Shown: positions 8,740 to 63,612 of the stretch, piece by piece
How the letters are laid out: every line of letters starts with the position of its first letter
Position numbering within the stretch: the stretch's first letter is position 1
IMG/VR virus record: IMGVR_UViG_3300029998_000013
Span: 62,001 to 126,000 of that record
Reading direction: 5' to 3' (one strand)
DNA: 64,000 bases
Source of the DNA: a virus
Translations under genes and position numbers: made by a program
Notes under the pieces: generated by a model
What the model was told of the DNA's origin: nothing
What the model saw: the letters and a program-made list of their open reading frames with translations, nothing else
Database searches by the model: none

Positions 8740-9426
8740 ATGGATGACTCAAAATTCGCTACTTTTAAACCTATAATAAATCAAGTATCTCAAGATAGAA
8801 ATGAAATGGCTGCATATTATGCAGCTAATAATCTAACTCCTGATAATGATTATTTATCTAGATATCTTTCTGGAATTACGCCTACTATACCTGCGGTTCA
8901 GACAGCACAGAAAATATCTCCTGTGCCTCAAGTTCAAAGTATTAGAGACTTGCTTAATCAAGCAATAGCAAAACGAGTTGCTGTAAATCCACCAATTGCA
9001 GCTAATGTAGAAAATGTTGCTTTAGATGATAGACCTAAAGAAGCTATGAATTTCTTTATAAGAAAAGGTCTTAAAAAAGAATGAGCTGCTGGAATTGCTG
9101 GAAATTTATATCATGAATCTGGATTTGATACTACTGTTCCTGGAGATCATGGATCTGCTTATGGGTTAGCTCAATGAAGAGGTGCTCGTAGAGAAGGTTT
9201 AAATCAATTTGCTAAAGTACATAATACTGATCCCGCTGCTTTTGGAACTCAATTAGAATATATCTATCATGAATTACAGAATGGTGAAAAAGATGCATTT
9301 GCTGCACTTCAAAGTACAAATAATGTAAGAGATGCTGCAAGAGCCTTTGCCTTAAAATTTGAACGGCCTAAAGTTTATAATACTGAAAGAGCTGATACAG
9401 CCGAACTTTATTATAAAAATTGATAA
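8740..9426 (+). CDS. Phage lysozyme (endolysin / tail-lysozyme-type muramidase) with in-frame TGA codons
   Basis: A 228-aa protein when TGA is read as Trp. TGA codons occur at residues 115 (9082), 146 (9175) and 228 (9421), and TAA follows at 9424. Residues ~100-228 match the phage tail lysozyme family: WAAGIAGNLYHESGFD with the likely catalytic Glu, GDHGSAYGLAQW, then a helical C-terminus. The Trp after GLAQ is a family-conserved position, which supports the reading. The first ~95 residues are a Pro/Gln-rich linker without signal peptide. In the standard code the product would stop after residue 114, before the catalytic domain. It stands alone between two terminators behind its own promoter. 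It could be the cell-lysis enzyme or a virion enzyme for DNA entry. Confidence 0.88.
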
Positions 9427-9472
9427 AAATAAAATAGCCCGACCACTTAATTGTGATCGGGCTATTTTTTTT
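9427..9472. terminator. Bidirectional terminator between lysis gene and late operon
   Basis: The perfect stem AAAATAGCCCGA / TCGGGCTATTTT, extended by CAC/GTG pairing around a TTAATT loop, has A and T tracts on both sides and can terminate both strands. It lies exactly between the lysozyme stop (9426) and the stop of the leftward late operon (9471-9473). Confidence 0.9.
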
Positions 9473-12400
9473 AAGATTGTTGATCTGTATCAATGAATTC
9501 AAAAGCTTTTACGTCTGTTAATAATCGTTTGATTGTCTTATCTCCATCCATAGTATCTTTAACATCACCCATAACTTTTAAACCATAAGTTCAGAATGCA
9601 GGCTCACTTCGAAGATTACCAAAAGTATTATTCCAAAGCATAGCTTCATTAATCATTTTTTTATTTACAGCCATTGAGAATGCTTTTGTTTCAGCAGTCA
9701 TACCCTCAGGATTATCTCCAAAAGCAGCTTCTAATAATAATTTAAATAAACAAAAAACTAAATACATAAGAGCTCCATCAGCTAATCCATATTTTACACG
9801 ATTAAGTCTAAGTTCATCTTGTGTATTAATATCTTCTGCAATTTCGGTAAATGATTTATGATCACATAATCCTTTATAAGTGTCTCGAATAGTTTTAGCC
9901 ATTGAGAATACAACACCTTCATGAGGTAGTCCTGTTCACTCAATTAAAGGATCGCCTGTATTTTCTCTTACATGGTCAAACCCAACAATTTCTCCAGTAT
10001 TTTCATCATGGATTGCTTTTCTCCATAATTTAATTTTCTTTCCATCAACTAACTCAGTAGCTTGTCTATGTACTCCAGTAATTTTAGTAGATTCGTCTAC
10101 GGGTTTACCAAATCACATATCCATTTTACCTGGTCAGAATTGCATAAATTGAAGATATAATAATCCAAATACAGTGTAATGTCAAGAAGGAGATTGTTCT
10201 TTATCATAATATCCATATACTGTATCAGTATAAGATTTATAACTAGATCGTTCTTTTTCAGAATAAGCTTGATCAATTAAATCCTCTTCTCCAAATTCTT
10301 TCATCTTGGCAATACGTCTTTGATCATTAATTTCTTCTCTAATAACATCATACATTTGTTTTTGTTCATTATATTTTGTATCAGTTGCAGAAGGTAAAAA
10401 GATATACTTACCACTAGGAGCTCTATATTGTTCTCTTACACTTAAGTAATGAGAGAATCGTTTATCCTTTCTAGGATCATATGTAATAAAACCATTCTTA
10501 TCTAAAGTGTGGGCATCCATACTTTCATCATGAATCATTTTAGCAACAAATAAAGACATACGATTGTAATAATCTGGAATTGTATTACAAGCATACATAT
10601 AAGGATGTAATCCCATAAATATTCCTCGACGATTTGTTTGAATCTTTCTTGCGTATGAATTTAAATCCATATTAGCAAAGGCATAGAATTTATTTAATGC
10701 TTCTATTTTATTAAATTCTAATGACATTTGCTTATCAATGGTTAACATCATTCCTAATGCTTTTCCATAATCTGCAAATGTAAATTGATCTTTTCCAAAG
10801 AATTGAGTAGCAGCTAATGCAGCCCCTTTATACATTCCAATAGCTAACTCTTTAACTAAAATGGCAGGTCTAAAAGCAAGCATTTGTGCAGTTGTAATTT
10901 TCTTAGCAACACCGGCAGCACTAATAATATCTGAGAATTCTTTATCAATAATTGGTCTATCATAAAAGGCCATATCAATTCTTTCTTGTATGTATGTAAG
11001 TGCCTTAGAAACATCTTTATTTTGTTTAGCTCCAGTAAGTTGAATTCATCATGCATAATCATTTAAAACTGGCAGAATATTATCAACATATTTTTTTCTA
11101 ACTTTTTCTTGAATTACTCTATGTGCAATAGCATCTAAATCAATTTCAAAACTCCAATCACCACGATCTTCAATTTGTTGAGCAATATATGAAGCAGACT
11201 GCTTTCCATATATTTCATACATTTCATAATAACCTTTTGAGACTTTTTCAGCTTCATTTCGATCTTTAGGATCCAATTCTCTGCCATCAACAAAATCTCT
11301 AACATTAGCTCCAAAAGTTCTTGCTGCGCGTTTTAGACCTTTGCCTCCTTCAGCTACAACTCCTTTATATTGACTTATAGTATTAGTTCAAATTAATGGC
11401 ATTCTGAAGTACTCTCCATTTTCAATATTAAACATAATTTTATCGACTCATTTCTTTGGAGCTGTTTTTTGAATAGTTTCAATTGAAGTTGGGTCGATTT
11501 TTTCTGCTATATCATTAGGAATATGCATTAATTGTCTTTGAATTTTAAAAAGGATGTTAGTTAAATACTTTCTTTGTGCAGGAAGCATTACATTATCTTT
11601 TTCAAAATTATATGGATTTTTAACCTGTCATTTATTTGATAGTTTATTTCCTTCATGTAATCATAGTGGATTAAAGTGCTTACGATAATCACCTATCATT
11701 TGTTGTTCTAATTGAGTATAATGAATATCTGCATAATACTCAGTAGTGTCTCCATGTACTTGAGAACCTAATTTATCAATTTCATGCCGCATTAAACTGA
11801 TACTACCTGTAATAATTCCATTGATTGTAAACAAATCTTTTGAAGCAATTTTATCAGGTGTTGTTGTTTTCAAACCACCAATAATACCAAGAATCTTTTC
11901 TTGTTCTTTATTGTATTCATCTAAATTATCAGAATAGAATGCTTTTAAAACACCAAAAAAATCTTGATATTTAATAGCATAATCACGCAATCCAGTGACA
12001 TCTCCTTCAGGAACAATTCCATAACGAGTTAATATTAAGCTTTTAACTAATGCATATAAATATTCAGCCGGTCTTTTAAAGTCTACTGCCGAATTAAATG
12101 TTTTTTCACCTAAACCAAAGAGTTCTCTTAACCCTTTTTCTGCAGCTCTTAAATCTTCAAGAGGAGCGTCAAGCATATTACCTCTAATATTGGCAAAAAG
12201 ATTATAAACAGATTCTTTTTCTTCAGAATCATAAGTACGTAGTACTCCATTAATAGCTTTGAAAACAACATCTTTAAATTCAGGAAGATCAGAATCTTTA
12301 TTAATTCTAATTTGATAATTTTGTTTAGCAGCCACCTCTTGAAAATCACTAAATGCTTCTCGAATATTTCGTTGCTTACTTACACCTTGATCTACGTCTA

Positions 12401-14150
12401 AGATTACAATATCTTGAATCTTATTAAGATTTAGTTTTAAATCATCATACATTTCATTGAGTACAGCAAACACTTTAAAATATTCTGCATCTAAATATGT
12501 ATATTTATTATCATATTTACTTAAGAAATTATTAGCAGTAATAGCTATAGGAATGATTTGTCCAGAAGAAGTATTACGTAATAGAATAATTCCTAAACTA
12601 TCTAACTCTGAAACTGATTCAATAACTGCATATTGTCCATTAAGGTATGGTTGCAGTGCATGTCTTGCTTGTTTTTGTTGATTTTCACTTGATAATTCTA
12701 ATTTATTAGCGTTTCCAGCATTAATAGCTACTGTAATTGCACTCTTTAATTGAATGACATTTCTATTATCCTTATTATCAAGAAAGGATAAGAATTGGTC
12801 TGCAATGTCTCCAGCTTTTTTAACTTTTTCTGCTTCAGTAAAGCTCGTAAAATTCTTAATTGCAATACGATTTGATTTAGCTGTAATTGGACTGTCTTCA
12901 TCCAATGGATTTTCAGTAACAAATTGATCTAAATCAGCTTTGTTAACAGTAAAGTAAGCTTGCTTTAGGATATCCTCAACTAATTTTTCTCTATGATATT
13001 CTCTACGAGTTGTTCTAATTTTATACTTTGGTAATAAAGAGACTAATGTATTAATTAATCGAAGTTCTCTATCTGGATTAGTTTCTAATTTAATAGAGTC
13101 TGGAATAAATTTATTTGCAATCTTAAACAACATACCATCATTAAAAATTAATCCAGCTTTTGGATCACCATTTCTAACTTGTTCATTACCTTTAGTCAAT
13201 GCTTTAGGATCTAATTTTCCTCCTACTAAGCTTCCAGTTTCAATTGGAATAATAGTTAAATCAGAGTGTGAAACATCAGTATATTGTCCTAATAAAGCCC
13301 TTTCAAAAGCTAATTGGTAATCAGATTGTAATTTCTTAGCGCTGTCTCACTTTTCAAAACCTCTTTTAGAGCTTTTAATTGAATAAATATGAGGAACTCC
13401 TTCGGAAGTTACTGTAACAAAATCAATATGTCCTGAGATATGAAAAGGAGGCTCTCCTTCAGTTGTTAATAAAATATCAAACATTGGAGTTCCTCTAGTA
13501 AATATTACTTTAGAAATTTCGTCAACAATACTATTTAATTTTGTATTTAAGTCTGTTGCTTGTTCAGCTTCAATTAAGTTCTCTGCAACAGCTTCTTTCA
13601 CTGCAGTAGCTATTGTAAGTTTTGATTGAGCTCGTGGGTCATTACTTTCAAAGTCATCAGCAATATTTCCAACTGCATTCTTAATTGCAATAATTAGTTT
13701 ATTAGTTTTTTCTTCAGCTTCCATTACTTCAAGAATATCTTTTTCATATTCTATAGATTCAGACAAAGTTGGATCTGCCTTAATTTCTGCTAAAGTCATA
13801 TCTTTTAAACTATCTTCTGTATGTCCTGATTCAACCAATTTATTTACAACTGATTGATACACACGTTTTGGTGCATCATATTCAGGACTTAATCTAGAAG
13901 CTGATATACCCATAGGTTTGAGGGTTTCCTCATTTTGTTGACTAATAAATTTAGTCAATGGAATTCTTTCAAGCTTACCTATCTCATCTCTACGAACTAT
14001 TTGCTTATGTATTGATTCTAAAGTAGAATCTTCAGCATTAGAACTATAGATATTAGAGTTTGCTAATGGAGTTTTTGATTTATAAAACTCCATTAGCACT
14101 CTTGCTAAAGATAGTGAATCCTGGTCGTTTACACTATATGTACATGCCAT
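9471..14150 (-). CDS. Giant virion protein, 1559 aa, with PD-(D/E)XK-like domain
   Basis: This is the last gene of the late operon, continuous only if TGA is Trp (TGA at 13347, 11661, 11049, 10182 and 9591 among others); it stops at TAA 9471-9473. Around residues 225-290 is a PD-(D/E)XK-like fold: Glu233, GHID with Asp243, HIYSIKSSK with Lys259, a Trp encoded by TGA, and a later QSDYQLAFERALLG helix (Gln/Tyr as in Cas4/RecB-like nucleases). The acidic residue before xK is replaced by Ser257, so activity is uncertain. The remaining ~1250 residues are helical and unrecognised; near the C-terminus LADGALMYLVFCLFKLLLEA could insert in a membrane. By position it belongs to the ejected giant proteins of crAss-like phages. 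Confidence 0.85.
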
Positions 14151-14157: not shown

Positions 14158-17100
14158 CTATTTACAATTAATTTTTATTTTCTTTTCTTTAATAGATTTT
14201 TGTAGCCAATCTCTAAAGTTAGCGTCAAAAAATATTAAATTAGCATTCTTAACATCTTTGCTAATATCTCTTTTATTAAAACCTGTAATGTCTTTTACAG
14301 ATGCAGAAAGTAATCCTTCTAAATCTTCAATGTTTAAATCATTAAATGATTCAGCACTTAAATCTTCAGACACTTCTGCTAAACCAGCCACAATACCATC
14401 AAATAATTGATTTTTAAAATCATCTTCAATATCAGCCAATCCATTGTCTAATAACTTTTGAGATAAATATGTTACTAAGTCTTCTTCAATAGTAAAGGCA
14501 TCTAAGGCCTTTTCTTTAAGTTTTCCAACTCGATGCCCTTCAATAATTTTATCATATAAAGTAGGTTTGGTATATCTTAAAGACGTTAAAAATAGATGTA
14601 AGAATTCATGAACAACATCATCTTCATTTGCTTTACTATTATACATATTAATTACAATAGTAGGTTTTCCATCTACATCGGGCTCAATTCAAGCCTTTTT
14701 ATTTTTATATTTCCTATATTGTTCATCATTTGTTGTATCTCAATTTACTCTTGAGACTTCAATATCAAATAAATTTGCAAACTTATAACCTACATAGGCA
14801 GCTAATTCATCACGATCAGTTAGTGTTTTTCTGCTTGGTTTAATATCAAGATTAGCATCCAAATCTTTTTGATTTTCAGAAGTAAATGGAAGATACATTG
14901 CTTTAAATACTTTATCATTAAATGCTTTATCAATATTTAAAGATCGGCGAATTGTAATAATTTTTCCATCGTTATTAATTCCATTATATTCTAAAGTCAT
15001 TATACCATTGTCTGTATTTACTACTTTAAACATTTTATTACTAAAGTCAATATTAGCACTTCCTGCAAAAGATTTAGCAAAACAAAAATAAGTATTTGTC
15101 TTAATATAATCTCTAAATTTATTATAATTTGGTCTAAGAATTCCACCTTTATCCTGCAAGATATACTCTTTTAAAGATTTGTTATATCTTTTAATATAAC
15201 CATTATCCTTTTGTAAAAGAAATAATTGTTTACCACGAACATTTTGAAGTTTATTTAAGTCCTTAATTAGCTCTTCAGTTACATCACTAAATTGATCTGC
15301 AATCGCATCCATACGAGGCCCTCATCTAACACTGCCAACATCATAATTGCCAGATTTTAATAGAGTGGGACTTATATTATCATTTACAAGTTTTGGTATA
15401 ACATAACGAGCAGGTACTAATTTAAAGCCATTAGCTTTATCAAGCATAAATCTATTTGTATCAATTTCATCAGCACTATTAGCTGATACTAATGTAAAAT
15501 TATTAAAATCAGCCATTGTTCTTCCATCTTCTGGAGCAATATCTCTTTTAGTAATAAATAAATTAGCTTTAGAAAAATCAGCAAATTCATAACTATGTCC
15601 AACGTCTACTCCATTTTTAATTTGAAGACGAACTGCATAGTTATCCTTTTTACTAATGATTTTATATAGAGTCCCTGAATTTTCTTCTTCTCCTGGAATT
15701 ACAAAGTAATCTCCGTCTTGAGCTGCTTCTGCAGTTAAGAAATAGGAAAAATTAGCATCACGAACTGATTGTTCTTTTAGATAGATATTGTCATATTCTT
15801 TAGCTACATCTTGTAACTCTTTAATTGTTAACTCCGGTAACTTAGGAGTAAACATTTCTACAATACTTTCTCTTGGTTGTGCAATAATTTTCTTAAGTGT
15901 ACGAGTTTTATCTGCATCTCTTGTTTTAACAATAATATAAACTTTATCATCAGATACAGCAGCAACTTGATTATAGAAAACGGAATCAGGATGGCCTTTG
16001 ACTCTAGTTACGATTTTAACAAAATCTTTGGGTTTAATTGGTAGATAATTCTTTCCTACTTTTTGAACGCGATCTAATGTTTCTAATAAATCACGTTTTT
16101 TACTTCATTCTTTATCTGTAAAGCTATCACTCAGTTCACTATTCAAAATAGTAAATGATTTAATATTTCTAAAGTCTACAGGAAAAGAACGACGTTTTTC
16201 AGTCTTAGAATTTAATCTAATTTCTCCAGGGAATATATCTCGAACAACACCTCAAGAATTTTCAATTGTTTTATTTTTCTTTTTATCGTAATAATCATAG
16301 CTAACAGTTGACCCACGTTTTACTAAAGTTTTAACAATATCCTCAGGTAATTTCTCCTGATCTTTAACTGTTACAATGAATTCTCCAGGAAATTGTTGCT
16401 CTAATGTTAAGGCATCTTGATGACTATCTATATCCTCAATTGGATTTAAATTATTTAATTTTTTAAAATAGAATAAACTATCAGGAGTTAATATAATAGA
16501 TTGATCTTTAGCTAATTCAGTTATGATACCATTAGCAGACCAAAATCCAGAATCTATTCTAATTCCACCCTTTTCTCTAACAATACTTGTGGGAATCAAA
16601 TTCATAGTTCAATTTGAATCTGACCTTTTTCCTTTTTTAACTGGGCGACCATCATTCAAAGGAATGCTAATAATATCTTGATATAGTTTTACATTAGATA
16701 ATGCTCAATCTTGTAGACTATTAATATCATCTTTAGTTATTTCTTCAGCTTTATCAAAATGATAATTAATTACATTCTTATGTATAAAATTTTGAATGGA
16801 TTCTTTACGTTGTTTCTTAAGAAATTCCCTATTTTCTTGATCCTCTTTATTAAACTCTTCTAGAACTTGAGCCATTCGACTTTTAGTCCCACTTCCATAC
16901 TTATCAGGACTGATATGTTTAAATAAAGTTTGTAGTACTTTTATATGTTGATTTTTACGCTTCTGTAATTTAGTAACAAATGTTTCTTCGTCAGTTTCTT
17001 CGGGTTCATAATTAACTAATAAATCATCAGCAACTAAGTTAATAATTTTATCAATTGCAGATTTAGTCCCAGTTTTATGAGATAACATCTTAAAGAACTC

Positions 17101-18057
17101 TGGATCCATATATTCACCCTCTTCATTAATATAACCTAAGAAGAATTTTTTAACATCAAAATTTGTTAAATTAATTTTATTTGTATAACCTTCATTATAT
17201 TCTTTAACAATACTAGATACATCTGATGCATTTAATTTTGATGAAAGATAAGTAAATATTCCTAAGAATAAAGAAAGTTCATTAGAATTATTATAAAAGA
17301 AAATTGGGGTTTTAGTAGCTTCATCTTCAACAACAATAGTAGTATTTAAAGAACCCTTATTAAAGGTTGCATTATAAAATGATTTAGTAGATCGAACTCC
17401 ATTTTTATTTGGAAATGCATAACCAATTAAATCTTTTAAAGCAGTTAAAGCATCAGAACTTTGATTAGCACCTTGCAACTTACTTATTTCAGAATTAAAA
17501 GAAGTAATCTGCTCATTAACAGATTTAACCCCAATTAAAGAATCAACTTCAACTTTTTGAAAGTACTTTTGACTTAATGTTTTATTTAATTCAAATAATA
17601 AATCAGATATAGAAATCTTACTTTCTGTTCCCCTAGTATTTCTTTTAATAATAGTAGCATCACTACGTAATATTTTAAATAAAGCATCATTAATATTTGT
17701 AATAGTTAATTCTTCATCTATTTTAGAGTTTATTCTATTAATGAATTGTTCTGTAATAGAAGTTTCTAATTCAGGATTAATTGCACTTATAGCTGCAGAA
17801 ACTTTAGGGCCTGATAAGCCTGAATTAATATGTTCAGAGATTTGATCTTTAATTGCTTTAAGTTCTTTGTCTCTAGATTCTTCAGCAGTTGTAACAGCTT
17901 CTTCGCTTAAGTCATCTGCCGAGAGAGCCTCGTTTTTTAATGCCACATAATCCCTTAATAATCTATCTAATAGGGGAGTTTGGGCGGCTCTAGTAAGGTT
18001 AGCGGAGAATTTTACTTCTCCGCCACCTGGTAATTTTATAATATAAAAACAATTCAT
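14158..18057 (-). CDS. Giant virion protein, 1299 aa, with HExxH zincin motif
   Basis: Continuous from ATG at 18057 to TAG at 14158-14160 (TAA follows in frame) when TGA is Trp; TGA codons at 16705, 16252, 15322 and 14740. The N-terminal ~450 residues are helical and charged, followed by beta-rich segments with repeated KIISKKDNY- and FVIPGEE-type strands. Near the C-terminus, DVVHEFLHLFLTSL contains HEFLH (His1150-His1154), the zinc-peptidase motif, in a helix as expected for a zincin. A protease acting during virion maturation or on entry is an inference. It starts one base past the stop of the polymerase gene and is in a different frame, so it is a separate polypeptide. Confidence 0.85.
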
Positions 18058-18058: not shown

Positions 18059-21000
18059 CTACTCGCACTTATAATTTATGAGTAAATTTTGACTTCTTAA
18101 TAATGATCTTATTGTTGCAACAGTTTGGTAATAAACACTTTCTTGGAAATTATTCTTAGCGGCTGTGGTATTAATAACGAAGTCACTATTTTTAATTTGA
18201 ATCATATCTCCATCAAGAAGCATTTTCCCTCTTACTTGATTAATTAGATAAAGAATATTATTAATCTGTTGTTCTTTTAAAATCTTCTTCTTTTTTTCAG
18301 TTTCATTTGTAATTTCAAAAATATCTTTGATACCTCTATCAACTCTTGAACTAAACATTAAATAATCATTGGCAATAGATGATCCATCTTTTACATAATC
18401 TTGAAATAATGGAGTAAGACGATTATCACCGTATGTTTCATTATTTACAATTAAATTATATAGATAAAATAAATCTTTTCATTTAACAATTTGACCATTT
18501 AATGCTGTAACTTTATTTGATGGCTCAATTGAGCTATCAATTTTATTAAATTCATTTAATAATTTAAGAAAGTTTTCAATACTAATAGGATTATTTAATG
18601 TACTAATTCCATATGTAGGGGCTATTTGTGTACCAAATAAACTAAATGGATTTCTCATACTTCTTAATGTTAATGTATCACTTAGATCAGATGTTTCTGA
18701 TTTTTCTAATACACTAAATAGAACTTGTTCCATCATTATTTTAAAATTTGCTATTCCATAATCAGATGTTAAATCAATAATAACATCATTGTCTGAACTA
18801 GGTTCAATTTTTAAAACCATATCTCCAACATGAGGAATTTTATTTTTAGTTGCTCCTCTTAAATCAAGTGCTGAATGCATTTTGGCTCCGTCTGAAGTAT
18901 ATAAATGAACATTTGGAACGCCAGCTAATTTTAATAAATCTTTTGCACTAAATTTAAAATTTGCAATTTTAGACTCTTTATCAGCTGTTTTTAATCAAGA
19001 AGAAATCATATAATTATCAAATGCCGAAAATGCACGACTTAACATTTTATCGTCCATAGGAATTGGTAATGCTGAATTTCCTCTTTGATGTTTTAATACT
19101 TGATCTTTCTTAACATCAGTTGTTAAAGCTTTTTCATTTGTTCTAAGTAAATCTCTATAATATGAGAATACAAAGTTAAACTTTTTTGATGTTAATAAAG
19201 CTATATTAAAGGTAGTTCCTACACTATGAATCATTTCTCTAAAGTGAGGCACATTTTCTAATACATCAAATACATTAACTGTATTTTTAATTAAATTATA
19301 GTAATTTGCTGCAGCCTTTCTATATTTATCATTTTTAGGATGAATAAAATGACGACAGTTAAACTCTCCACCAATAATTGATTTTGTATGAATTTCTTCT
19401 TTATTATAATAATTAATTGATGATACTTCAATTTCTGAAGCATTACGAAGTGTGTCAAAAATATAATCAAAAACTTGAGTCTTTGAGTCATTAGACATAC
19501 TATATAATTTACTTAGATGTGTATTATTATTTAAAATAGCTAATACAATATCCTTATAAGTTTTATTAGTATCTGATAGAGTGGTAGTTTTTGTTCCATC
19601 TGCATCAGTTTGACTAATACTATTTACTACTACATTAGTTTCAAATTCAGCTCTTACAGCTGCAACAACTTGATTATAATCATCAGTTCCTTTTAGTAAA
19701 CTATTAGCTGTTATATTCTTTAAACTCTTAAGTTTAAAGCCAAAAACTTTATGTTCAGAATTAAACATTGCACTTTCAATAACATTTAGAAAATTGTTTA
19801 GAGCATCAACGTTTGCATCAATAGAACCATTAACTCCAAAAATCTTAGCCATTGCTCCAAATTCAGCACCTCCATTAAAGATGTCTAAGAAAGTTTTACA
19901 AATAGCATCCATATCAGTTCTTGAATTATTATATAATGCAAGTTTACCTTCAATTTGTTGATATTGTTCAACTAATGCTTCAGCATAAACTGGTTTAGTT
20001 GTCAGAAAAGTATTTGATTGAATATTATGAGCTACATATTGTGCTAAGTCAGAATTCATATAAATAGAAACATCTTTAGCAGAGAAACCTACAGCTAACA
20101 TATATAAATGCATAGCGGCTAAGTCAACCACAGCATTAATTTTAGCCATAATTAATTCTTTAGCATTATCAGTTGCTCCAGAAATAAATCCAGAAATTGC
20201 TAATGCAGCTTGAATTCTATTAATTTCACTTAATTCTTTTTGTAAGTCTTCATATCCATATAATCCTAAAATAGATTGAAATGTAGATTTAGAAACTCTA
20301 GTGTCAGCAATACTTACTCTTGTATGTTTTTTTAATACTCCAGTAGCAGGATCTTGCATATAAAATTCCTTTAAGAAGACTTTATTATCAGATATTCCTT
20401 TAATGCTAACTAAACCTTCATCTAATTTTTCATACCAACTATTATAGTAATTGCTAAGTGCAAAGAAAACTTTTAATCCATTAGCTCCAATACCTACGTC
20501 TTGTTTACCCACAGCTGCTTGATATTGTTGTTTAAACATGCCAACAGCATTAGTAGACGAGAAACGATCTTTTCTCCTAATTAGATTTTTTGTAAAATCG
20601 GTTAAAGTTTTAATCTTAAGATCTGCTTTAGCTCTACTATTGATTGTTTTAGTTAAATCTGCAATTTCTGAATCAGTAATTGAGGCAGGATTAACATCAG
20701 CTAAAGTAGAGATTATAGTAAGTAAAGGAGCTTTTTCTCCAGAATTACTAAGTCACTCAGTTAAGATTTTATCAATTTGTTGAAGTCTTACTTTACCAGC
20801 CTCTGCCGCCCCAGAGTGCCACATATTAATACTAATAGGCACAGTAGCTAATAATTGATTACTTGGAGCACTAATTGTACTGTTAATCTTAGACACAATT
20901 GAATTTTGCAAAGTATGTCTAGAAGAAATATAATCAGTGTATTCATTATAAAAGTTTAAGAATGTTACTAATTTTGATACAGATGGATCAGTTAATATTA

Positions 21001-24000
21001 CTTGATTTGATAAAAGTTTAATATCTTGTGGCGCTAATTCTGAATCAGTTAATAGATCCTTAATAGTTTTTGCCCCTTTATTAATTTTTCTTAAAACTTT
21101 ACCTAATCTATTTATATCTTCTGGTGCCATTAACTTAGCAATTTCAAATGAATTAGATAAGTTACCTGCAATATTATTAAATCATGCAGCATCTTCATTT
21201 AAATTAATAGCTCTTTTAAGAATATATTGAGGAGAACTTTCATTCGTAACACTTACTAAAGTATTAGATGGTATAGGTAATGTACTTAATGCATCCAACT
21301 CTTCTTTAGTATTGTAGTCAAACATATTAGTCCATAAATCAAATTGAGAACCTTTATTAAATCCATAACCCATAATGTAGGCCTTATCAATATCAAAGTC
21401 AGATCCCTGTAATCAAATTTGTCATACTGATACATAAGCATTATTACTTGGTGTATTAAAGTATGCAATATTTTTCATAGGCATAAAAGACTGCATTGAT
21501 TGAGCTGGAATACGAGCGGCAATAAATTCATGTGATTTCTCTCATGATGCATATTGTTTCTTTGCTAATTTTTCAATAATTTCTTGTCTATTATTATTAA
21601 ATCAATTAGCGTCAGGAATATCAGATTGTCCAATCTTAACCTTAGTTAAATTATAATAATATCTTAGTAATTCATTACGTAAATTAACTGGCTGTAAAGT
21701 AGATTCATTGATTAAATCTTCTGTTGTATCATTCATTAGAGGAATAATAGCTCTAATCTCTCTAGCTGATTCTATAAACTCTTTAAATCATTTACCAGCA
21801 TTAGGATTAAATACATACTTAGATTTTGTTGTATTGGCTGCTTTAATGTATAAATAATCATCGCCATCTTTAACTAAAATTTTAGAGCCTAGTTTACCAC
21901 CTGGCTTCTTATATAAATACTCGCCAGTTTCCCCTAATCTATAAGTTACTGTTTTACCATCTTCTGAGTCCTGTTTTAAAATATTTCCATTTTGTTGTTC
22001 AGTTGGAAGTTGAGAAACTAATCTAACAAATATACGTTTCCCATTTTGTAAAACAATTTTAAAATCTGCAGGAGTTGAATCTTCTGCATAATCTTCTTCA
22101 AGCAATTCTTTAAAGTAAGAGGAACCCTTAGCTTTAACAGTAGAGATAGTATCATTACCATTACTGAAAGTAGATTTATAAATATTAGGAAGAACTAATT
22201 CAGCAGCACTAAATTTATAATTATAAACTTGTTGTGAGTTATTTGTTAAATAATGTTCTTTAACATCATCAAAAATATCAGCTACTAAGGAATCATTCCC
22301 AAAATAACCTGTAAAATTAATAATGCCATTTGCATCAGTAAATTTATTTAATTCTTGTAAAGTAATACCTTGGTCAAGTAAGTCTAGATTTCTTTGGGTT
22401 CAGAATCTAAAGTAATTATCCAATTTATTAATATCAAGTTTGCCTTCTGCAGTTAAAGTATTAAATCTAGCTGCAAATTGCATTAAAGTATTTAATTCTT
22501 GAGGAGTAATATCAGTATCATTTTTATTAGCTAAGAAGTCCTGATGCTGAGTTAATGAGTAACGTAATCTTACTGAATCTAAATCAAATAAGGTTTTTGT
22601 TGTCATAGTAGGCAAATATCTCTCATTTTCATTCATTTGGGTAGTAAATGATTGACCTGATGCCGCAGCTTTTTTAGACATTAATAACAATTCAATAACA
22701 CCTTCTCATCCCATTGGTTTATTTAATCCAAATACTTTTGCAAGTAATAATTGAAGTCTACCAATTGTTTTTTGAATTCATGATAAGCTAGGATTTTGTT
22801 CAGCTTGGCGTGCTAATAATTCTTCTATGATTTCTAATTGACCTTCTTCTGAGTTAAGATTAACACCATATTGAGTGGCCATATCTTCAACTGATGCCAT
22901 ATTAGAGCCATCTAATAATTTAGAAGCATTCTTATATAAATAGTCTCTGGCAGATAATAATATATTTTTATATGTATTAGCATCTTCTCCATTAAATAAT
23001 ATACTTAGTCCATGATGACCTACTGCTTCATGAATAATCAATTGATTTCCTTTAGCGGTTCCTTTATAAGCCCCATTTAAAGTAATCTCTTGTGTACTAG
23101 GATTATAGAACGAATTAACGATTGCATCAATTCCAGCAGCCTTAGCAATTCCTCGCATAGAACCCTCATCAACATATTGTACTTTTAATTTATTTAAACC
23201 AGCTAAAGAAAGACTTGTATATAATTTAGTATTTCTTTCTTTTTCTAACTTAGTGTCAAGGGTGGTGGCCACTTGAAAAGTTAATTCTGCAGGTTTTAAA
23301 TCACGTGTAACTCGAACTACTTTCTTAATAGCTTTATTTGGGCCATATGCTTTAAGTTTATAATATTCAGCAGGATTAGAAATTTCTCATAATTCTCCAG
23401 TTTCTGGATTAATTACAGTATCTGCTAAATTAATTTTATCAACTGTAGTATCAACATCTGGAAGTAATTGTTCAATATAACGATCAATTATTTCATTATT
23501 TGTTAAAGTTTCCTCTCCAGGGATATAATTATCAAGAGCTTCGCGAATCATGTCTTCTTGAGAATAGATAATCATTTTTTCAACACCATCAACAATCTTT
23601 GGAACTTCATAAATTTTATACATTTTATGTGAGGGGTTTAAGATAGCTCCTAAACCACTATAATAACGAGTTAAGAATTTATTATTAAGTTTAACAATTA
23701 AATCTCTCATAAAATGTTGAAAGAAGTTTTTATTGCTAAATGGTAATAACTCCCCATCTTTAAATGATTCGGCAATTGAAGTTGCTAAATCGACAGAAGG
23801 AGAATTTGCTAAGTGTCTCGCAAATTCCTTAGATAATGATTCATATAATTTATTTAATTCTGCTTCTCCTAATTTAGAAATAGAATTTACTCATGGTTTT
23901 GCAGCTTGTTGAATTAAACGAGCTATATCTTCATAAGCTTCATTAGCTATTCCAGCTGTTCTTTCATTCTGTGATAAGGCTGAAATTACTTGTGTTATTT

Positions 24001-27997: not shown

Positions 27998-28008
27998 ATT
28001 TTATATTT

Positions 28009-44871: not shown

Positions 44872-46094
44872 TATTGACGACTAACTATAGATAATGTTTC
44901 ACCATTACCTTCGATTTTTAACTCAATATCTCCAGCAGTTCTAACTGATGGTGTAATAGTCATAGGATTATCCTTATCAAGACCTTGTATTTTATATAAC
45001 TCAGTTAATTTTTCTTGTAAAATACTGAGGATTCCTCCCATAGTATTTGGATCTGTATAAGTTCCACTTATAGATTCTCAGATTGTATCCGCTAAAGCAA
45101 CATAATCTACACCTCCACTAGAGGCTAAATTTAGTTTACTTCCCATTGTCCCAGTTTTATTAAAATCAGTAGCTATACTGTTTCATACATTAGCTGCTAA
45201 ACTTTCTGGGGATAATTCTGTAAAAGGAGTAATATCAGCAGAAATATTAGCTGATGCTTTTATGTTAGATTCTAAGGATCCAATTGCATTAATAGCAATA
45301 ACTAAATTTGCAATAGCTTTAATATTAGCAGTTAATGCTCCAATTCCTTGTATATTAGAAGTAATATTTCCAGCAATAGAAGCTCTTCCTATTAAGGAAG
45401 ACAATCCATGCATTGTTACAGAAATATTTTCTGTATAAATGCCAGTTCATAAATTTGCACTAAATATTTGTCCATATCCGCTAAGATTAGCAGCAGCCTC
45501 AATAATACCTGAAAGAACAGGATCAGTAAAAAATTCTCCTAATCCACTTATAGTAGATTCGAGTTTAGCTATTGCAGTAATGTCAGAACTTAGTAATCCT
45601 TGTCCATCAATAGTAGAAATAACATTAGCAATTGCTTTTATGTTAATATTAGTAAATCGACCTAAACCATTAAGATGGGATGAACTAATTCCAGCTTTTG
45701 CAAGTATATTAATATTATTGAATAATCCTATTCCACTAATTTTATCTGTAGAAACAACATCTGCAGGAGCTTGAATTGCTGTATTTGAATCAAATTGTCC
45801 TATTCCATTTATTAATGTAGTTTCAATTCTTCTACCAGCAGCTGCATAAGCATTAATGAAATTACCAGTCGCTAAGATTGATGACGTTGCTGCCATCCCT
45901 CCTTCGCGAATTGGTAAATTTCATGATGTTGGAGTTAAATTTCCAATTGGAACCCCATAATAAATACTCATGCCTCCTTCACCAACATATCTATTTAACA
46001 TGCGAGATAGTTGAGAAGTTCTCATCTCACTTGTATATCCAACTGAATTATATGGTTCAGCGAAACGTAATGATATATTTTGAAGAAGTCCCAT
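44871..46094 (-). CDS. Tail fibre or tail appendage protein with repeats, 407 aa
   Basis: ATG at 46094 to TAA at 44871-44873; TGA is Trp at 45447, 45183 and elsewhere. Residues ~60-300 are imperfect repeats of about 25-35 residues with a Gly-x-Gly turn followed by Ile/Ala-rich strands (for example GIGLFNNINILAKAG, GLGRFTNINIKAIAN, GIGALTANIKAIAN), suggesting a beta-helical fibre shaft. The end, NSIATDFNKTGTMGSKLN and WESISGTY, resembles the C-terminal modules of phage fibre or hub proteins. It lies directly downstream of two other fibre genes. Confidence 0.75.
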
Positions 46095-50776: not shown

Positions 50777-51768
50777 TATTCAATTTCTTCTAAAAGTCCA
50801 GTTCTATCATCAGTATTTTCAAGAATTTCCTCAGTTAAGAATTTTCCACATTTAATAGCTAATTCATCAGAAGGATTTTCTTGATATTGTTTGAAATATT
50901 CTTCAAGTTGATTCGTAGTATCCTTTGCAAAAATAATTTCATTTGCTTCAATTTCTGCATGTTGAGTAATATCCCCACCTTCATTATATGTAATGACAGG
51001 AATACCTTTATCAGTCACTTGCTCAGCTATTTCTTCTGGAAGATTATTTTTTCTTGCATGTAAGGCTCCTTCTGGAATTACATTAAGTTTACCACCATCT
51101 TGAAACTTTTTAACATCAAGTGATTTATTTCTACTACTTATTAATTTTCGAATATCATCAAGTTTAGCCCCATCTTTTGCACTTAACATTTTAGTTTTAT
51201 AATTTCCCATTAATCCACTCATAAGTTGATTTTGGTTATTACTTGCTATATCCTGTGCATAAATAGCTCCAGCTTGAGCTCGATCATTTGCAGCACTTTC
51301 AAGTGCGCCAGCATTAGAATTAAATTCATCAGCTGCTTGGGTTTGTTTATTAACTAATTTATTTTTACCAAATCAAGTTGATATTAAAGAACCCTTTTTT
51401 CCAGCATTTGTACTTGTTTGCTTCTGATATGCATTTAATGTTAATCCTGAAGTTTGTTGTTTTGCAGTTGTTTTACCAAAAGATCTATTTGCAAAGTCTA
51501 ATGCTTTAATTCCTAATCCAACTGCTGGATTAAACATCGTGGCTGCATCTCCTGCAGCAGATAATACATCATCCGCTCCAGTAGTTAATTCAGCTTGTGG
51601 AATAAAGGCTTTTCCAAGATCCATTGCCATAGAACCAATGATGCCAGCTGGAGAAATTCCTTTCCCCAGGGCACCAGCAGCTTTATTTTGAAATCCCATG
51701 AATGTTTGTAAACCTATTGCAGTTAATCCACCAGCAGGAGTTTGATATTTTTTTATTAATTTAGGCAT
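50776..51768 (-). CDS. Virion protein, 330 aa, with Q-x-GG motifs
   Basis: ATG at 51768 to TAA at 50776-50778 with a TGA-encoded Trp at 51373. It begins MPKLIKKYQTPAGG and contains a second motif VKKFQDGG near residue 215. The N-terminal part is Gly/Ala-rich (GISPAGIIGSMAMDLGKA). The C-terminal third has HARKNNLP, KGIPVITYNEGG and QHAEIEANEIIF, a pattern I recall from conserved crAss-like virion proteins. It overlaps the large tail gene upstream. A structural or internal virion role is likely. Confidence 0.76.
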
Positions 51769-54700
51769 AGCTTAATGTAAATAATGTTTTAATTACGCTA
51801 ATTAGAGCTAACTCAGTTCCTGAATAATTAATTCTAATTTTAACATATTTGTCTCTTGTCTTCATTTCTTTTAATGGAGTATATTTTAAAACTCCTCCAC
51901 TTAAATAAGCATACTTAAATGAAAGTGGTTTAATTTGTACATCTCATGAATCTTCTACATAATGCATATTTCCTCTAATTCGACCATACTTTGGATTACC
52001 TATATTTAATCCCCTTTGTTTATATTTAACTAAGTATTCATTTGTTCTATAGTCTTTAACCAATTGAACCATATAATCACTTAATACCATATCACTGGGT
52101 AGATCTTCATCAAAATTTCGACTTAGGTCAATATAAGGTAGTTTTTTAATCTCTGGATGAAGTATCAAATATGTTAAATATTTATCTTCAAGTGTTCGAA
52201 TCTCAGGATGAGTATTCATATAATCAATATATGCTGTACCAAGTACAGGACTTGTATTTGTAACATCATTTAATGCATATACTAAGGCTTTATTATCAAC
52301 TCACTCATAACCTTCACCAACAATACTATAAGAAAAACTTTCAGGCGATACCTTATTAGATATAATTTTTATATTATCAAAAATTTTCTGAATACCTGGA
52401 ACACCAATAACTACAAATTCAAAACTGAATTTCTCTTGTTCTCCGTACCATTTGGTTGGATATATTAATTGTTGACCATCAATAATTCCAGCAAAGCCAT
52501 GCTTTCAAACGCGACTTTTCTTATCAGGTTTAAGAAATGCTAATCCATCTAATAATATGATATCTGTTTTATTGGAAAAACCATAAGCAGCTAAACTAAC
52601 CCCTAAAATATAGGAACAGTTTTTTATCATATTATTGTCAAAGGTATAAAAAATATTGTTAATATTTTCTGAAAATCCTGGAATTCATGAATATCTCGTT
52701 ACAAACTTTTCTAAGATCTCGTTAAAACAAATACTCCATTCTGTAAGTCCATTAATAAATGTAAAAATAACATCTTGCTTATTTGCATTATAATGTGTTT
52801 TAATATTTCTAAATCCAATAATTGGATACTTAGCAGATTCCGTTAAATCAATATTCTCATTTAGAAACTTCTGCAATTTTAAATCTGAAATTACTTCAAA
52901 TTTTTGTCCATTGGTTCTCCATAATTTCTTAGCATTGGTATCAAAGCCATAGATATAATTAGGAGTTTTAATTATAGAATCTTTTCAAGTAGAGCCAAAA
53001 GTTTCGGACAAGACTTTTGGATTCTTTGGAAGAACATTTTCAGTATTAATGTAGACATTTTCTCCGTTTGCGTTAGTCATTAGTGCTCGTTCATTAATAG
53101 GAATTATAACAACCCCATTTTCCATTACGCAGACTAATGATCCAAATCAATCTACTAATTTAACAATAGCGCCGTAATTCATTGTATAATCTTGATAATG
53201 TCCACTTCTAAATACTTGATATCCATTACGATATAAGTCTGTAATATGAACATCGGAGTATGCAATTCTATTATAGAATTTTGTTTTTAAGTATTGTGAT
53301 TCAGGTAATTCAAAATTATATTTATCAGAAGTAGTTTTACTAATTCCTGAATTTATTACATTTGATTCTGGTAATGAATTATATCTATTACCTTTATCAA
53401 GAGGAAAGAAACTTCTTTTTCTTCTATGCAAAGCTTCCTCTTCAGCTCTTGAAAAGTCAACATCTCTTAAAGATAGATTTACATTACTAAAGATTTTAAA
53501 AGTAACTCAATGTCCTAATGGGACAGCATTAACATCAGGAGAACTAATTTTACTGCATCCAAAAGTTCCAACCTTATCAGAATATTTAGCATAATTACTA
53601 TCTCCAGGTTCTAATATTTTAGTACCTTTTAATGTATATAAAGGAATAAGTCTTTTATAATTAATCAAACCTGTACCAGCAGTATCTTCAGCTGTTGTAG
53701 CCTCTAAATGACCTGTTGGAACTATTGCATTTGAGGCAGATTCGCCTGTTATTCCAGCATTAGTATCAGTAATCCCAGGAGTAGAAGTTAAGTCCTTATA
53801 GTACTTAGTAACAACATGGTAATTTTTATGTCAGCCTAACTTATCTAATATTTTAGTATTAGTAGGCATTTGAGGATCAATAAAATTCCAGTTCATTCTA
53901 TGTGTATAAGTACAAATATAACAATCTCCTCTATATAAACTTGAAGTTATATAATTTTCAGAAGCTGTTATATTTTTTCAAGCAAAACGATCTGAGATTG
54001 CATTGAAAGGAGTTGCATCATCATAACGAATTTTAAAATAATCATTTCAGTACTTATTAAAGTCATAATTACTTTGATAAATATTATAATAATGACAATC
54101 TAATAATGATTGAGAAACTCCTAAATAAGTATTAAACTCTCCTCTAATTAAGTATGGAGATTTAGATAATAAATTTGCATCTGCTTGCGAGTCAGTTGTA
54201 GTATAATCATCGACACTTCCATACTTAATATCCTCAGCTTTATATGCTACATAGGGATCTCCAGCTTTTGAAGAGAAGTAATCAATACCATTTGTTGTTA
54301 AGTCAATACCAGGTTCTACTAAAGTTACTCTAGTAAGAATATCTGGAGTTGATTCTACTTCAGGACTTTTGACTATATCTTTTAAAGTAAAGCGATAATA
54401 TTTTGTATTGGTTTTATCAGTACTTAATTGATCAAAAACTTTACTTCCTTGATACTTAGACAAACGTAATTTATAATTAGATGAGTTAAAGAAATTATTT
54501 AATATTGAAGTTCGAACACTTGCCTCAGGACAAAGTGCGGCTTTAGTTTCTACATATGTTGGAGAATTTAATAAAAAAGCATAACTGCCAATTGATAAAG
54601 TATTTTTATCAGATAGAGGAGTTAAAAAAGATTGGGCAAAATACTGTCCATTACTATTTTTAAGAACTGGAATATTTCCATTTTTAGTTTTAGCAATTGC

Positions 54701-56161
54701 AATTGTTTGGGCAATAATATCTGGAATCCTTGGTTGTCTTACAACAAAGAATCCTTTAGTTAAAGATTGCAAACCTGATCGTATAATTTGTCCTGACTCA
54801 TCTTTACAATCTGCCATAATATTAGATGGGATTGTAATTCCTAATCCAATAGGTTTAATTGGATCTGATTTATTTATAATTTTTACAGTATTAGAATTAA
54901 TTTTAAAGACTCCTTTTGCATTTTCTAATGGATTGACCTCAAGACTATAATTATCATTTACTTTTATTTTATAAATTCCTTGTGTGTTAGTGTCAATAAT
55001 AGGAATTGAATTAAAGGTTGTAGAATCTGTTAATTCTTTAACACCTCTAATATTAAATACAGGAGATAATGAATAGTCATTCATAATATAAACAATACCT
55101 AGTCTATAAATCTCTTCATCCCAATATCCAAGTCTGTAATAAATATTATTTGGATTATAATACTCATATTTATTTCCAGTATTACTATTTGCAATTTCTT
55201 GATAATTAGGATCTAAATTTCCAATAGTTTCAGTATGAGTTAATCTTGGTGTAATTCGAAGACTTAGGTCTTTTAATTCTTCATAAGTACTGTAACTATT
55301 AGTTATATTTCCAAGAAATAGCATATTTTGAACTTGTGCTTGAGTCTTTACGGTATCAATTGTTTGAAATCCAGAATTAATATCAGTTATTGATACTTCT
55401 TCTATATCCTCATAACCATTAATAATGAGTTTAGTTGAAGTGCCCTTAACTTTATACGGTTCCTTAATTACAAAAGCCTTTAAGATTGATTGAATTGAGT
55501 CATTTCCAGTATTAATTGTATAGTAAACCTTAATATAGGGAAATGATAAATCAATATTATTAAGAGTAAAAGAGATAAGTTTTTGACTATTTTCAAAATC
55601 TAATCCACCTCTAATTGATTCAGGTTCATTAACTGTTCCAATATAACAAACAACTTTTCCAGACTCTGATACAAAATCAGTCTCATTTCCATCCGCATCC
55701 GCATATTTAAAATAAAACGTATAATTTCCAATTGATAATTTTCCGCCCGATTCAACTCCATTAAAAGTTAAAGTTGGAATCTCTTGAGCTACTTTTAATA
55801 AGCCTGCTTCTACTTCGAAATAATTTTCATTATAGATGTTTGTATCAATATCTCCATTTCTGTCAGCTACATCAAATGTATTATCTTCACCTACAATAAA
55901 TCTTGAATTTATTAATTTTGGTTTATTCTTATCATCATTCAGAATTAAATTTACAGAACCATCATAGGATGGCTGTACTTCAATATCAATGGGATTTGTT
56001 AATGATGCTCCAAATAATTTATTATCTATTTTTAATTCTTTTAGTTGTCCATCACTTCCTAATAAATTATAGAAGTTAGCATAATTATACACAAGATTTC
56101 CAGATTTCTGTAAACCTTGTGTATAAGTAGTTAGGATAAATGATAATTTTGGTATCTTCAT
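51761..56161 (-). CDS. Large tail protein of the crAss 'stabilization/muzzle' type, 1466 aa
   Basis: ATG at 56161 to TAA at 51761-51763 when TGA is Trp. The N-terminal segments SGNLVYNYANFYNLLGSDGQ, SYDGSVNLILNDD, NSRFIVG and FYFKYADADGNETDFVSESG are, as I recall them, characteristic of the large protein annotated as stabilization or muzzle protein in crAss-like phages. The chain is beta-rich throughout with many Tyr/Asn strands, as expected for a distal tail component. The first 700 residues contain no TGA, while the C-terminal half is interrupted by several. It overlaps the next gene by 8 bases. Confidence 0.85.
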
Positions 56162-56162: not shown

Positions 56163-58955
56163 TTATATATTTACAATAGTGCTAAAAACTAATCCTATAT
56201 TTGAGCCAGTATTTTTTATATAGAATTCTACTCCAGCTAATAAGGTTGGCTCATCAATTTGATAAGCTTCTGCTTCTGAAATAAAATTCGATGCAAAAAG
56301 TTTATACTTATCATATCAGAGATAACGATCTAATGCTACAGGTTTTAATCTTAATAGTTCAACATCACTCATAAACCCAAGGTCTGTATTGTCAATCATT
56401 TTAAGATCTAAGAATAATGGTGCAGAATTAGGTGAATTCTCATCTCAAATTTTAACTACAGCTCCAGAAGTATAATTTATTGGGATCTCATTAATAGTTC
56501 CAATTAAATGTCCAGTTGGAAGTTCAGTGGTTAACTCTCCAATATTTTTTAAAGAAAATGTTTGTAAAGAAGTTATATAATCAATTCCTCCATATTTAAA
56601 ATTTAATAAGAGTTCTGAATTTGTTTCTAGTGGTTGTTTCATATATAGATAAACTTTCTTTAAAACATTTCCCACTTTAACTTTTACTAGATCAAATAAA
56701 TTGCTTGATAAAATAAATTTATCAGATTGTCCTGATAGATTAAATAAATTATAATCAAATAAATCTTCAGCTTGTTGTATTCCATTCAGAGTACGTTCGA
56801 CAGCATATAAACCTGGAACTATATCTTGGGAATAATTAGTTTCTTCAGTAAAAGAATAAGTTAATGCTTCATTTACATTACAAATTCTTGGATCATAATC
56901 ATAACCAAAACTAATGCCATTATGTAAAATAACGTCTGTTTTAGTCGAAGAATTAGGATTAATATCAAGATTATTAAATAATATTTTTGTAAAATTATAT
57001 AAATGGAATGGATAGTTACCACTATCAGGATCAACAACTCTTAATGCAGTTGAACTTTCAAATTCTAATTGTAATCCTAAATTTTGAAAACTATTATTAT
57101 CCACATTTTCAGATGTAACTAAACTTGCCAATGATCCTATATATTTAAAATACGATAATAGTACATATCCATTAGGATATAAAGTTTCTAATGTTTGACT
57201 AGAAATTCCTAACTGTACAAAAATATTTGGTTTAGTAGCTTGAGAATATGTAATATCTATTAGATCTCCTCCGGAATTTCTTAATTCAACAATCGTAGCT
57301 TCTTTTATAGATAATTCTGGATGTGTAATATTTGGAACTCTAGTTGTAGCTTTTGTAATAAATTGAAGTTTAGTTGTAGTAGATGTAGTAACTAGACTAC
57401 CAGTTAATGTATATTTTTCAATATATTTTTGAGGTATATTCTCATAATTAAATATAGGAATGATTTTATATGTAAAAGTTTTTCCGCTATCATTTTTTGA
57501 TCGTTGAAATTGAATTACTTTTTGACCATTAATTAATTCAAATTCAGATACATTATTTTTATCTATATACAAAATATCATCAATATATAATGAACATTTT
57601 GTAATAGATATTAGAGAAGACGTTGTTGTATTTACTCCTATTGTAACATCTCAAACTGGAGATGCCCCACTATAATTTGCAGTAATAGTAGGATCTGTTA
57701 CTTCAAATAGATCAATATCTTCTAATTCTAATTTAGCTACTAATTTACCTTTAAAGCGATTTTGTATATAACTAGAATAAGAACTACCATCAGTTGCTGA
57801 ACCATCAGAACCTGTATTAAATCAATAGTATAAATTCCCTAATTGATAAGTTCTTTTAAAATTATTAGTAATATCAATAGATCCATTTGATAGAACTTGA
57901 TATATTTTTAATTTAAATAGTTTTCTAACAATTGTATTATCTGTATCAGTTGAATAACTTGATAAATAATCATACAGTGTTGGATAATTTGGGTAGACTC
58001 CTTCAATTTTTTCTACTTCTCCAAGATAAGTTCCATGAATTAAAATCAAGTCCTCTAATTCGGTTAAACTATTATAATTAGCGATAAAACCATAATTAAC
58101 TAAATAGAATTTTTTAATTGATCCAAAATCAATACTTGCCATAGAGTGACCGCTGACATATTGTCCCGAACTTATAATAGGATTTTCAGTATATTCTCCT
58201 GGCAAATTAATTACAAACTCTAAATTATCACCACCTGAAATAGTTAGATTTCCAAATTGTTGTTGTAATTCTAAACTACCAAAAGTTGTAGTATTATCAA
58301 TTGTTTGATCTAATAAATCTCAAGTATTAAATTGAACACTTGCTGTTTTTCCTAATGAATTTGCTTGCTCTGGTGCAGGGTAACTTCCAACCTGTGTTTC
58401 AATTAAAGTAAATTCAGTTGGAATATCTTTTGCAAATAATTTTCAATTAACTTGGATATCAGTAGTTAATAAGGGAGCATTATCACCACTTGAAATATTA
58501 GTCTTTGCTTTATAATATCAAACTACATCAAGATTTGTAATTAATCCTGTATTAATATCGGTGCTTTTAGTAATCTCCGTAATTTTAACGTAATCACCAG
58601 TAACATAAGATTTTAAAGATGAGTATTCTTCAGGAATAGGAATAGTAATGCCTTGAGCTGTAATTGTTTGCACTCCTTTAGCTGATACTATATATAAAAC
58701 TCCTCCATATTCTTTAACTCCCAAAGGAAAAAATCCTTCTCCTAAATTTACATCTTGCCAATTAGGATTATCTTCTGTGCCAGCATTATATTGAATAGGA
58801 ATATTTCCCATATCATTTTGTAGCATCATTTCATCCCCATTAAAAGTTATAAAAGAGCCATTAAGAACATCTGTTAATACATTATCTGGAGTTACCAAAG
58901 GATTGAGGTCTTTTACCATCCCTCCATTAAATCGATTTACACTCTCCTTTTTCAT
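56163..58955 (-). CDS. Conserved crAss-like tail structural protein, 930 aa
   Basis: ATG at 58955 to TAA at 56163-56165 with TGA as Trp. The N-terminus, FNGGMVKDLNPLVTPDNVLT, followed by LNGSFITFNGDE, LQNDMGN and VKEYGGVLYIVS, matches my memory of a conserved crAss-like tail protein in which such a segment forms the first blade of a beta-propeller-like fold. The rest is beta-rich with TGA-encoded Trp scattered through it. With its downstream neighbour it probably forms the body of the short tail. Confidence 0.83.
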
Positions 58956-61380: not shown

Positions 61381-61404
61381 CAATTATTAAATAAGTAAGA
61401 AAGG

Positions 61405-62472: not shown

Positions 62473-62505
62473 CTTGTATTAATTTTATGATTTAAAAATT
62501 TATAT

Positions 62506-63612
62506 CTATTTTTTGGGTTGTTGTTGTTCTGCTGGATTGGCAATAGTTGTATTAATTGGAATATGTGATTGTAATCTAGGATCACTAGCATTTTCCATTA
62601 ATAATTTAATTAACTCATTGACAATCTCCTGACAAACGTAATCTGGAAATTCTAATATTTGTGTATTATCTTCAACTTCATCTATCTGATCTTGCGAAAG
62701 TCTGATAAATTGTGGTGCTTTAAGATAATCAATAAAGATCTTTTGTAATTGAAATACGGAATCGTCTTTACCATAACGAACTTCCATTCTTACTTTTGAC
62801 TTATTTCCATATCTTGTAGAGGCTTCTTTTTCAATAAAACTATGAGAACTTGTAGTTTTTAGTAATCCTGCAGTTACAGTTACATCATAAACTCCTGTAA
62901 TATAAATACATGTTGGAGTTACAGCATTATCCAAATAAACTTCTTCTGAAGTTAGTCCAATTTCTCGTTTAATAGCTACAACTAATGTTGCAAGCGTTGT
63001 TCAATCACCTGGATTAGCTACAGTAATTCCATCAGCTTCAACTGTTCTTCTAACTGTTAAAGTAGTAGAATTAGTTGGAGTATTAAATGTAATTTTATAA
63101 GTTGGATTAATTACTGCTTGATTTGTAGTAGTGGGAAAGGTACTACTTGTATTAACATTATTAATATAATAATAAGGTCTTTTATAACAAGGTCTTAAGT
63201 AATAGTTGTTAATAATTTGAGAGAACATGTCGGCTGTAAGTCTTACAGCTCCTTGATGCCATGTTGAATTCGCATCATAACATTTAAAAGTCTTTAAAAG
63301 TCTATATTCTACAACACAATTTAGAACATGCAAATAGTCGTCTGGTAATTCAACTTCATACACTTTATCAAACAATGATGTAGTTCCATAGTCTGTGTTT
63401 CCAATAGCGCTAGGAGTAAGAACAGCTGAGCTCTTTAAAACACGTAGATCATCTGTCTTTTGTTGGTTGATATCATATACGTTGTATACGCGATTAATAT
63501 ATTGATTAACTGCCTTATTAATAAAATAATTATAATCTTCAAGTATTAGACTTGGAGCCTCTCTTTTATTTAGTTCAATAAGTGCATATTCAAACATTTG
63601 TTTTGCAGTCAT
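62506..63612 (-). CDS. Conserved head/connector gene candidate, 368 aa
   Basis: ATG at 63612 to TAG at 62506-62508, reading TGA at 63001 as Trp (NPGDWTTLATLVVAIKREIG). The helical N-terminus TAKQMFEYALIELNKREAPS and LEDYNYFINKAVNQYINRVY resembles the adaptor-like proteins next to phage portal or capsid genes. The middle is beta-rich. The C-terminus is charged and helical (CQEIVNELIKLLMEN) and ends in a Gln/Lys tail. Function is inferred from position. Confidence 0.76.

Follow-up and report, generated by a model that had tools for sequence, protein, structure and literature searches.

The stretch of DNA analysed here, referred to as the window, comprises 64,000 nucleotides (positions 62001-126000) of a virus record of 178320 bases; a record coordinate minus 62000 gives the window coordinate. 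The window holds early genes and a phage tail lysozyme gene on the plus strand and a long series of late genes on the minus strand (Table 1), the labels early and late referring to gene content and orientation. No tRNA genes were found in the window. The record belongs to the Crassvirales by its capsid (Crass_capsid, Pfam E 8e-12), muzzle (Table 1), portal (phrog_6547, E 3e-50) and terminase large subunit gene, terL (phrog_6681, E 3e-63). Its size, tRNA number and introns fit published accounts of the Zeta group, a comparison made by description.

Table 1. Positions of the features discussed. Positions are those of the window unless marked as record positions.
Feature	Position	Strand	Evidence and remarks
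Early genes, standard code, TGG only	292..8000	+	No internal TGA, normal TGG Trp rate; Pfam
DNA ligase (early)	2401-3573	+	Pfam
Weak Thy1 match (early)	5693-6766	+	Pfam
TAnnTTTG box, Bacteroidota-type -7 element	8706..8713	+	34 nt upstream of lysozyme gene; pattern scan, consensus match only
Phage tail lysozyme, PF18013	8740..9426	+	Pfam E 2e-33; TGA at 9082-9084, 9175-9177, 9421-9423
Late gene, 1559 aa, 12 TGA, 3 TGG	9471..14150	-	Aligned to MT835470, E 5e-59
Late gene, 1299 aa, 7 TGA, TAG stop	14158..18057	-	ORF call; MT835470 alignment
Late gene, 3312 aa, 18 TGA, TAG stop	18059..27997	-	ORF call; MT835470 alignment
Late gene, 3053 aa, 24 TGA, 3 TGG	28009..37170	-	Aligned to MT835470, E 5e-96
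Late gene, 616 aa, 5 TGA	37174..39024	-	ORF call; MT835470 alignment
Late gene, 1422 aa, 17 TGA, 1 TGG	39026..43294	-	ORF call
DUF192 protein; TGA 44083-44085 at W of FWMKDT	43663..44589	-	Pfam E 9e-27; MT835470 has FWMQDT
Late gene, 407 aa, 4 TGA	44871..46094	-	ORF call
Late gene, 698 aa, 10 TGA	46098..48194	-	ORF call
crAss-like muzzle protein, crAss_MUZ (PF25731), 10 TGA, 5 TGG	51761..56161	-	Pfam E 2e-32
Late gene, 930 aa, 7 TGA	56163..58955	-	ORF call
Late gene, 368 aa, 1 TGA	62506..63612	-	ORF call; MT835470 alignment
HNH homing-endonuclease ORF, 1 TGA	record 27986-28465 (L003:7986-8465)		Early region
GIY-YIG homing-endonuclease ORF, 4 TGA	record 31912-32526 (L003:11912-12526)		Early region
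GIY-YIG/NUMOD1 homing-endonuclease ORF, 3 TGA	record 46607-47257 (L004:6607-7257)		Early region
UCA tRNA, lone decoder candidate	record 161242-161337 (L007:15242-15337)	-	Outside window
603-aa gene, 2 TGA	record 161817-163628 (L007:15817-17628)	+	Adjoins UCA tRNA, outside late block

The record was compared with the standard-code relative MT835470, whose aligned late regions are all free of TGA, with 54 terL relatives, with opal (TGA-recoded) relatives, and with an amber (TAG-recoded) group that was found by searching with the terL of MT835470. All records compared are metagenomic.

Distribution and meaning of TGA

In-frame TGA codons occur in the lysozyme gene and in the late genes, as a preliminary description of this DNA had stated. 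Of the 29 late genes of the window, which together hold 139 TGA and 35 TGG in 18204 codons, 22 carry TGA. The two sites that the description singled out, in the lysozyme (9175-9177) and in the DUF192 protein (44083-44085, minus strand), are both TGA. In the 17 early genes of the window the Trp codon is always TGG (37 times). With TGA held open, the late block (record 70.7-154.6 kb) comprises 47 called genes with 227 in-frame TGA and 63 TGG, and early block 1 comprises 128 called genes with 237 TGG and no internal TGA. The early genes have 11.7 Trp codons per 1000 (TGG alone) and the late genes 10.4 when TGA and TGG are counted together (2.3 for TGG alone), so that the Trp share is equal in both. 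The complete absence of internal TGA from the early genes is partly a product of the gene-calling procedure, and the independent evidence is therefore their TGG rate together with the 26 early genes that stop at TGA, nine of them in four-base overlaps with the downstream gene. In late genes longer than 200 aa, frame 0 contains 208 TGA and, as the way of calling genes dictates, neither TAA nor TAG; the other two frames have 1121 and 1946 TAA.

The restriction of TGA to the late genes and the lysozyme is right within the window but does not extend to the whole record, where three homing-endonuclease ORFs and a 603-aa gene also carry TGA (Table 1). These may be mobile genes from recoded relatives, or genes that are expressed late. 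The 603-aa gene encodes an HExxH motif (HEIEH) and has no Pfam match; we take its product to resemble polyvalent phage proteins. The gene ends had been described as TAA or TAG, usually in TAATG overlaps. TAG does end 12 late genes and is not recoded in this record, but 'usually' was too strong a word, since one-base overlaps occur at only 7 of 44 late gene junctions; the spacing is within 12 nt at 34 of the 44.

Opposite 69 TGA codons in the aligned late regions, MT835470 has TGG 24 times, L 13, F 10 and Y 6 times, and Ser or Cys never, against a background of 69 TGG opposite 11246 codons other than TGA and TGG (0.6%; Fisher p 6e-34). Across the 54 terL relatives, the TGA columns hold TGA 348 times, TGG 204, F 87, Y 35 and L 16 times, and other residues 5 times or fewer. 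The enrichment for Trp that had been expected at such columns is thus seen in both alignments, and the excess of TGG in MT835470 over background indicates that TGA is very probably read as tryptophan in the late genes. The DUF192 motif is a single example, with TGA in the present phage at the position where the standard-code genome has Trp.

The decoder tRNA and its position in relatives

The record carries 25 tRNA genes on the plus strand, which form an early array that includes one CUA tRNA, and a single UCA tRNA on the minus strand. The latter belongs to the late strand, where it precedes terL by 6.6 kb, and lies apart from the array. The gene order on the late strand is a small gene of 70 aa, the UCA tRNA, PhoH, a PDDEXK nuclease, a peptidoglycan-binding protein, terL, portal and the virion genes, with a helix-turn-helix gene farther upstream. 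This UCA tRNA supports the proposal that suppressor tRNAs serve late expression, 'late' being a label that rests on gene content and orientation. The 70-aa protein matched no Pfam family and no PDB entry below E 0.7 (its fold was predicted well, pLDDT 85), and the PhoH search returned distant PhoH relatives only. A Cys(aca) tRNA reported by ARAGORN (L008:6209-6306) was treated as spurious because it is absent from the Rfam results.

In every opal relative that has the small gene in reach, a UCA tRNA sits behind it, in what is called the slot below. Two of these relatives, G004 and G018, have 32 and 25 tRNAs, respectively, of which this one alone is on the late strand; all others are on the opposite strand, and no UCA was found among the typed tRNAs of either array. 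The slot anticodon is UCA in 12 terL clusters (95% terL identity) of TGA-recoded relatives, with no mismatch. Long-arm tRNA bodies are found in three branches of the terL tree that lie apart from one another, which suggests that bodies were replaced in place. All 12 distinct loci have a TAnnTTTG box ahead of the small gene, at a distance of 12-89 nt, with 0.1-0.3 expected per 200 nt. Such boxes are only slightly in excess in the intergenic DNA of the record itself (26 vs 19 expected), and it is therefore their conservation across loci, not any single site, that is the evidence.

No decoder was found within reach in the recoded loci L035/L036 and L042. PhoH is inverted relative to terL in the opal relative L036 (2417-3031), and L042 carries a ribonucleotide-reductase-like gene (525-2780) upstream of PhoH, where other relatives carry the slot, as well as Gln and Met tRNAs at the contig end.

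The terL genes of the amber group contain mostly 6-13 TAG, a few of them 1-3, and no TGA except for one in the partial locus L166. The residue most often found opposite TAG in this group is Gln (54 of 215). Seven amber loci have CUA tRNAs on the strand of terL, at 6-9 kb upstream of it, and the slot anticodon is CUA in 8 clusters (95% terL identity) of the TAG-recoded sister group, again with no mismatch. In G019, G020 and G025 the lone late-strand tRNA was predicted to be CUA before the anticodons were read, and it is so in all three. The small gene was not found in the amber group, and the 11.7 kb available upstream in the standard-code MT835470 contain no decoder. In the terL tree the opal relatives form a single clade and the amber relatives two groups, with MT835470 nested, and the 20 slot-matching clusters are for this reason not 20 independent events.

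Four relatives have a slot tRNA that is interrupted within the anticodon, and scanners will therefore miss some decoders. In two opal loci a UCA tRNA is split between U34 and C35, by 620 nt in L052 (3056-3747) and by 605 nt in L076 (minus strand, about 2932-3609), in both cases with a PDDEXK-like ORF (for L052, Pfam PDDEXK_5 E 7e-11). In two amber genomes the break in the CUA tRNA separates U35 from A36, the insert measuring 984 nt and including an HNH-like ORF in G024 (L204:8976-10032) and measuring 222 nt without an ORF in G022 (L203:6310-6605, minus strand); their near relative G019 has an unsplit slot tRNA at that spot. When the exons are joined, all four give a UCA or CUA tRNA again. The intron of L076 scores 47.8 bits (E 5e-11) against the group I intron model RF00028, where the cut-off is 50, and those of L052, L203 and L204 match no model, their core motifs having been recognised by eye only. 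G024 and G022 had been considered as exceptions to the slot rule, which was rejected, both having a split CUA tRNA. With split tRNAs counted, recoding and decoder agree completely wherever the slot is covered.

Interpretation and alternatives

We favour, with a probability of roughly 85%, a reading in which the phage uses two codes in sequence, a standard code early and a code with TGA as Trp late, the latter through the lone late-strand UCA tRNA. Early genes would be read with TGA as stop. The late strand opens with the 70-aa gene and the UCA tRNA directly behind it, and the TAnnTTTG box that precedes the small gene is the putative promoter of the slot tRNA. Charged with Trp, presumably by the host enzyme, the tRNA would be made late and would read the 227 TGA codons found in the late genes and the lysozyme, and its appearance would switch the code. 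A Pfam scan of about 20 long early genes found neither a phage release factor nor a TrpRS.

A wider generalisation, for which we see an even chance, is that recoded crAss-like phages reserve a slot for their decoder where the late strand begins, in which the tRNA body and the codon may change while the anticodon continues to match the re-used stop codon. A suppressor outside the slot, such as the CUA tRNA of the array, would not recode, and in some lineages a self-splicing intron would cut the anticodon, so that splicing would be needed before late proteins are made.

The most serious alternative, to which we give somewhat less than even odds, is a passive one: a suppressor was acquired and TGA drifted into the later-expressed genes, with no function in control. 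The share of TGA does climb gradually along the pre-terL genes of the relatives, and tRNA bodies have been swapped freely, both of which fit such a drift. The conserved slot and its upstream box, however, suggest constraint, as does the near absence of TGA from the PDDEXK gene, the 157104 gene and the small gene. A TGA-free buffer between the tRNA and terL was also considered and dropped, as two short genes there have TGA and the share is graded in relatives.

The body of the UCA tRNA raises the question of whether Ser or Sec is placed at TGA instead. It has a long variable arm, G73, a short-looped D arm and an extended D stem, and its best Rfam match is tRNA-Sec (RF01852) at 38.0 bits, which is below the cut-off of 47, so that it is named tRNA-Sec-like only. 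A long variable arm and G73 are features that SerRS recognises. The decoder thus appears to have a tRNA-Sec-like body although the codons read are Trp. Insertion of Ser or Sec is nevertheless very improbable: the residues of MT835470 opposite TGA speak for Trp, slot tRNAs with class I bodies decode the same Trp columns, and late proteins would be almost Trp-free if TGA were not Trp.

An equally slender prospect is that TGA is read by a near-cognate Trp-CCA tRNA and that the UCA tRNA is incidental. The array does have a CCA tRNA, and near-cognate reading of UGA by altered CCA tRNAs has been described (PMC13092985); yet the slot anticodon follows the recoded codon, UCA or CUA, with zero mismatches, and the amber sister group is beyond the reach of this explanation. 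Least probable of all is a host that itself uses code 4 and reads TGA as Trp throughout infection without any switch, which would give TGA in late genes with no phage tRNA at all, but leaves the TGA stops and overlaps of the early genes, their exclusive use of TGG, the relatives of the same gene order that recode TAG or nothing, and the phage's own UCA tRNA unaccounted for.

Relation to known systems

The principal account of recoding in late phage genes is Borges et al. 2022. Late recoding in crAss-like phages, with TGA as Trp and suppressor tRNAs, has already been published (PMC7886860, PMC12386605), and the present phage adds one more member. According to passages of a crAss-like survey (PMC7886860), it is mainly the late genes in which TGA becomes Trp or TAG becomes Gln, suppressor tRNAs are present, the code can change over short distances, and recoding and detectable suppressors agree imperfectly; the complete agreement found here, split tRNAs included, differs from this last point, and a fixed decoder slot is not described in those passages. 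In the Zeta crAss-like phages Lera and ct1yV3, TGA is read as Trp mostly in structural and lysis genes, TAG is not recoded, and 26 tRNA genes include TCA and CTA suppressors (PMC12386605). As in Lera, TerL of the present phage is interrupted by TGA and an unused CUA tRNA stands beside a used UCA tRNA. In Lera, TAG stops are closely backed by TAA; such backing was not seen in the present record, where the distances after TAG resemble those after TAA; the two were compared by description (PMC12386605).

The introns in the slot tRNAs of relatives share with the group I introns of bacterial tRNA genes their insertion in the anticodon loop and, in some cases, an endonuclease ORF, but differ in that the anticodon is cut in stop-reading tRNAs that the phage late genes appear to need. 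A conserved decoder slot, an intron-split suppressor tRNA, a lone late-strand UCA decoder and a tRNA-Sec-like decoder body were not found in the literature searched, whose coverage was partial and is no proof of novelty.

With a fixed slot as the rule, one tRNA would suffice to predict the code. It would explain decoders that are missed (split or odd-bodied tRNAs) and suppressors that are idle (outside the slot), the persistence of unused suppressors being a question asked in the Lera paper (PMC12386605). It would also single out a small locus without which late proteins, and no others, should fail to be made, so that the proposed code switch is directly testable in cultured relatives.

Several further RNA features were observed. 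Theta (HDV-like) ribozymes occur beside phage tRNAs (PMC10879173); a candidate in one relative (L025:1653-1709) begins right at the UCA tRNA's 3' end and scores 21 bits, far under the cut-off of 44, and none was reported beside the UCA tRNA of the record itself. The anticodon stem of the array's CUA tRNA (record 24197-24271, L003:4197-4271, plus strand) contains a C-C mismatch; TAG is not recoded in this record. The Trp-CCA tRNA of the array (L003:5326-5409, 84 nt) has a long variable arm, as does that at L161:7043-7124 (82 nt), and the Trp-CCA tRNA of the relative L159 measures 76 nt. The record from which the window comes has a group I intron (98.5 bits) in its early region (L002:15115-15344).
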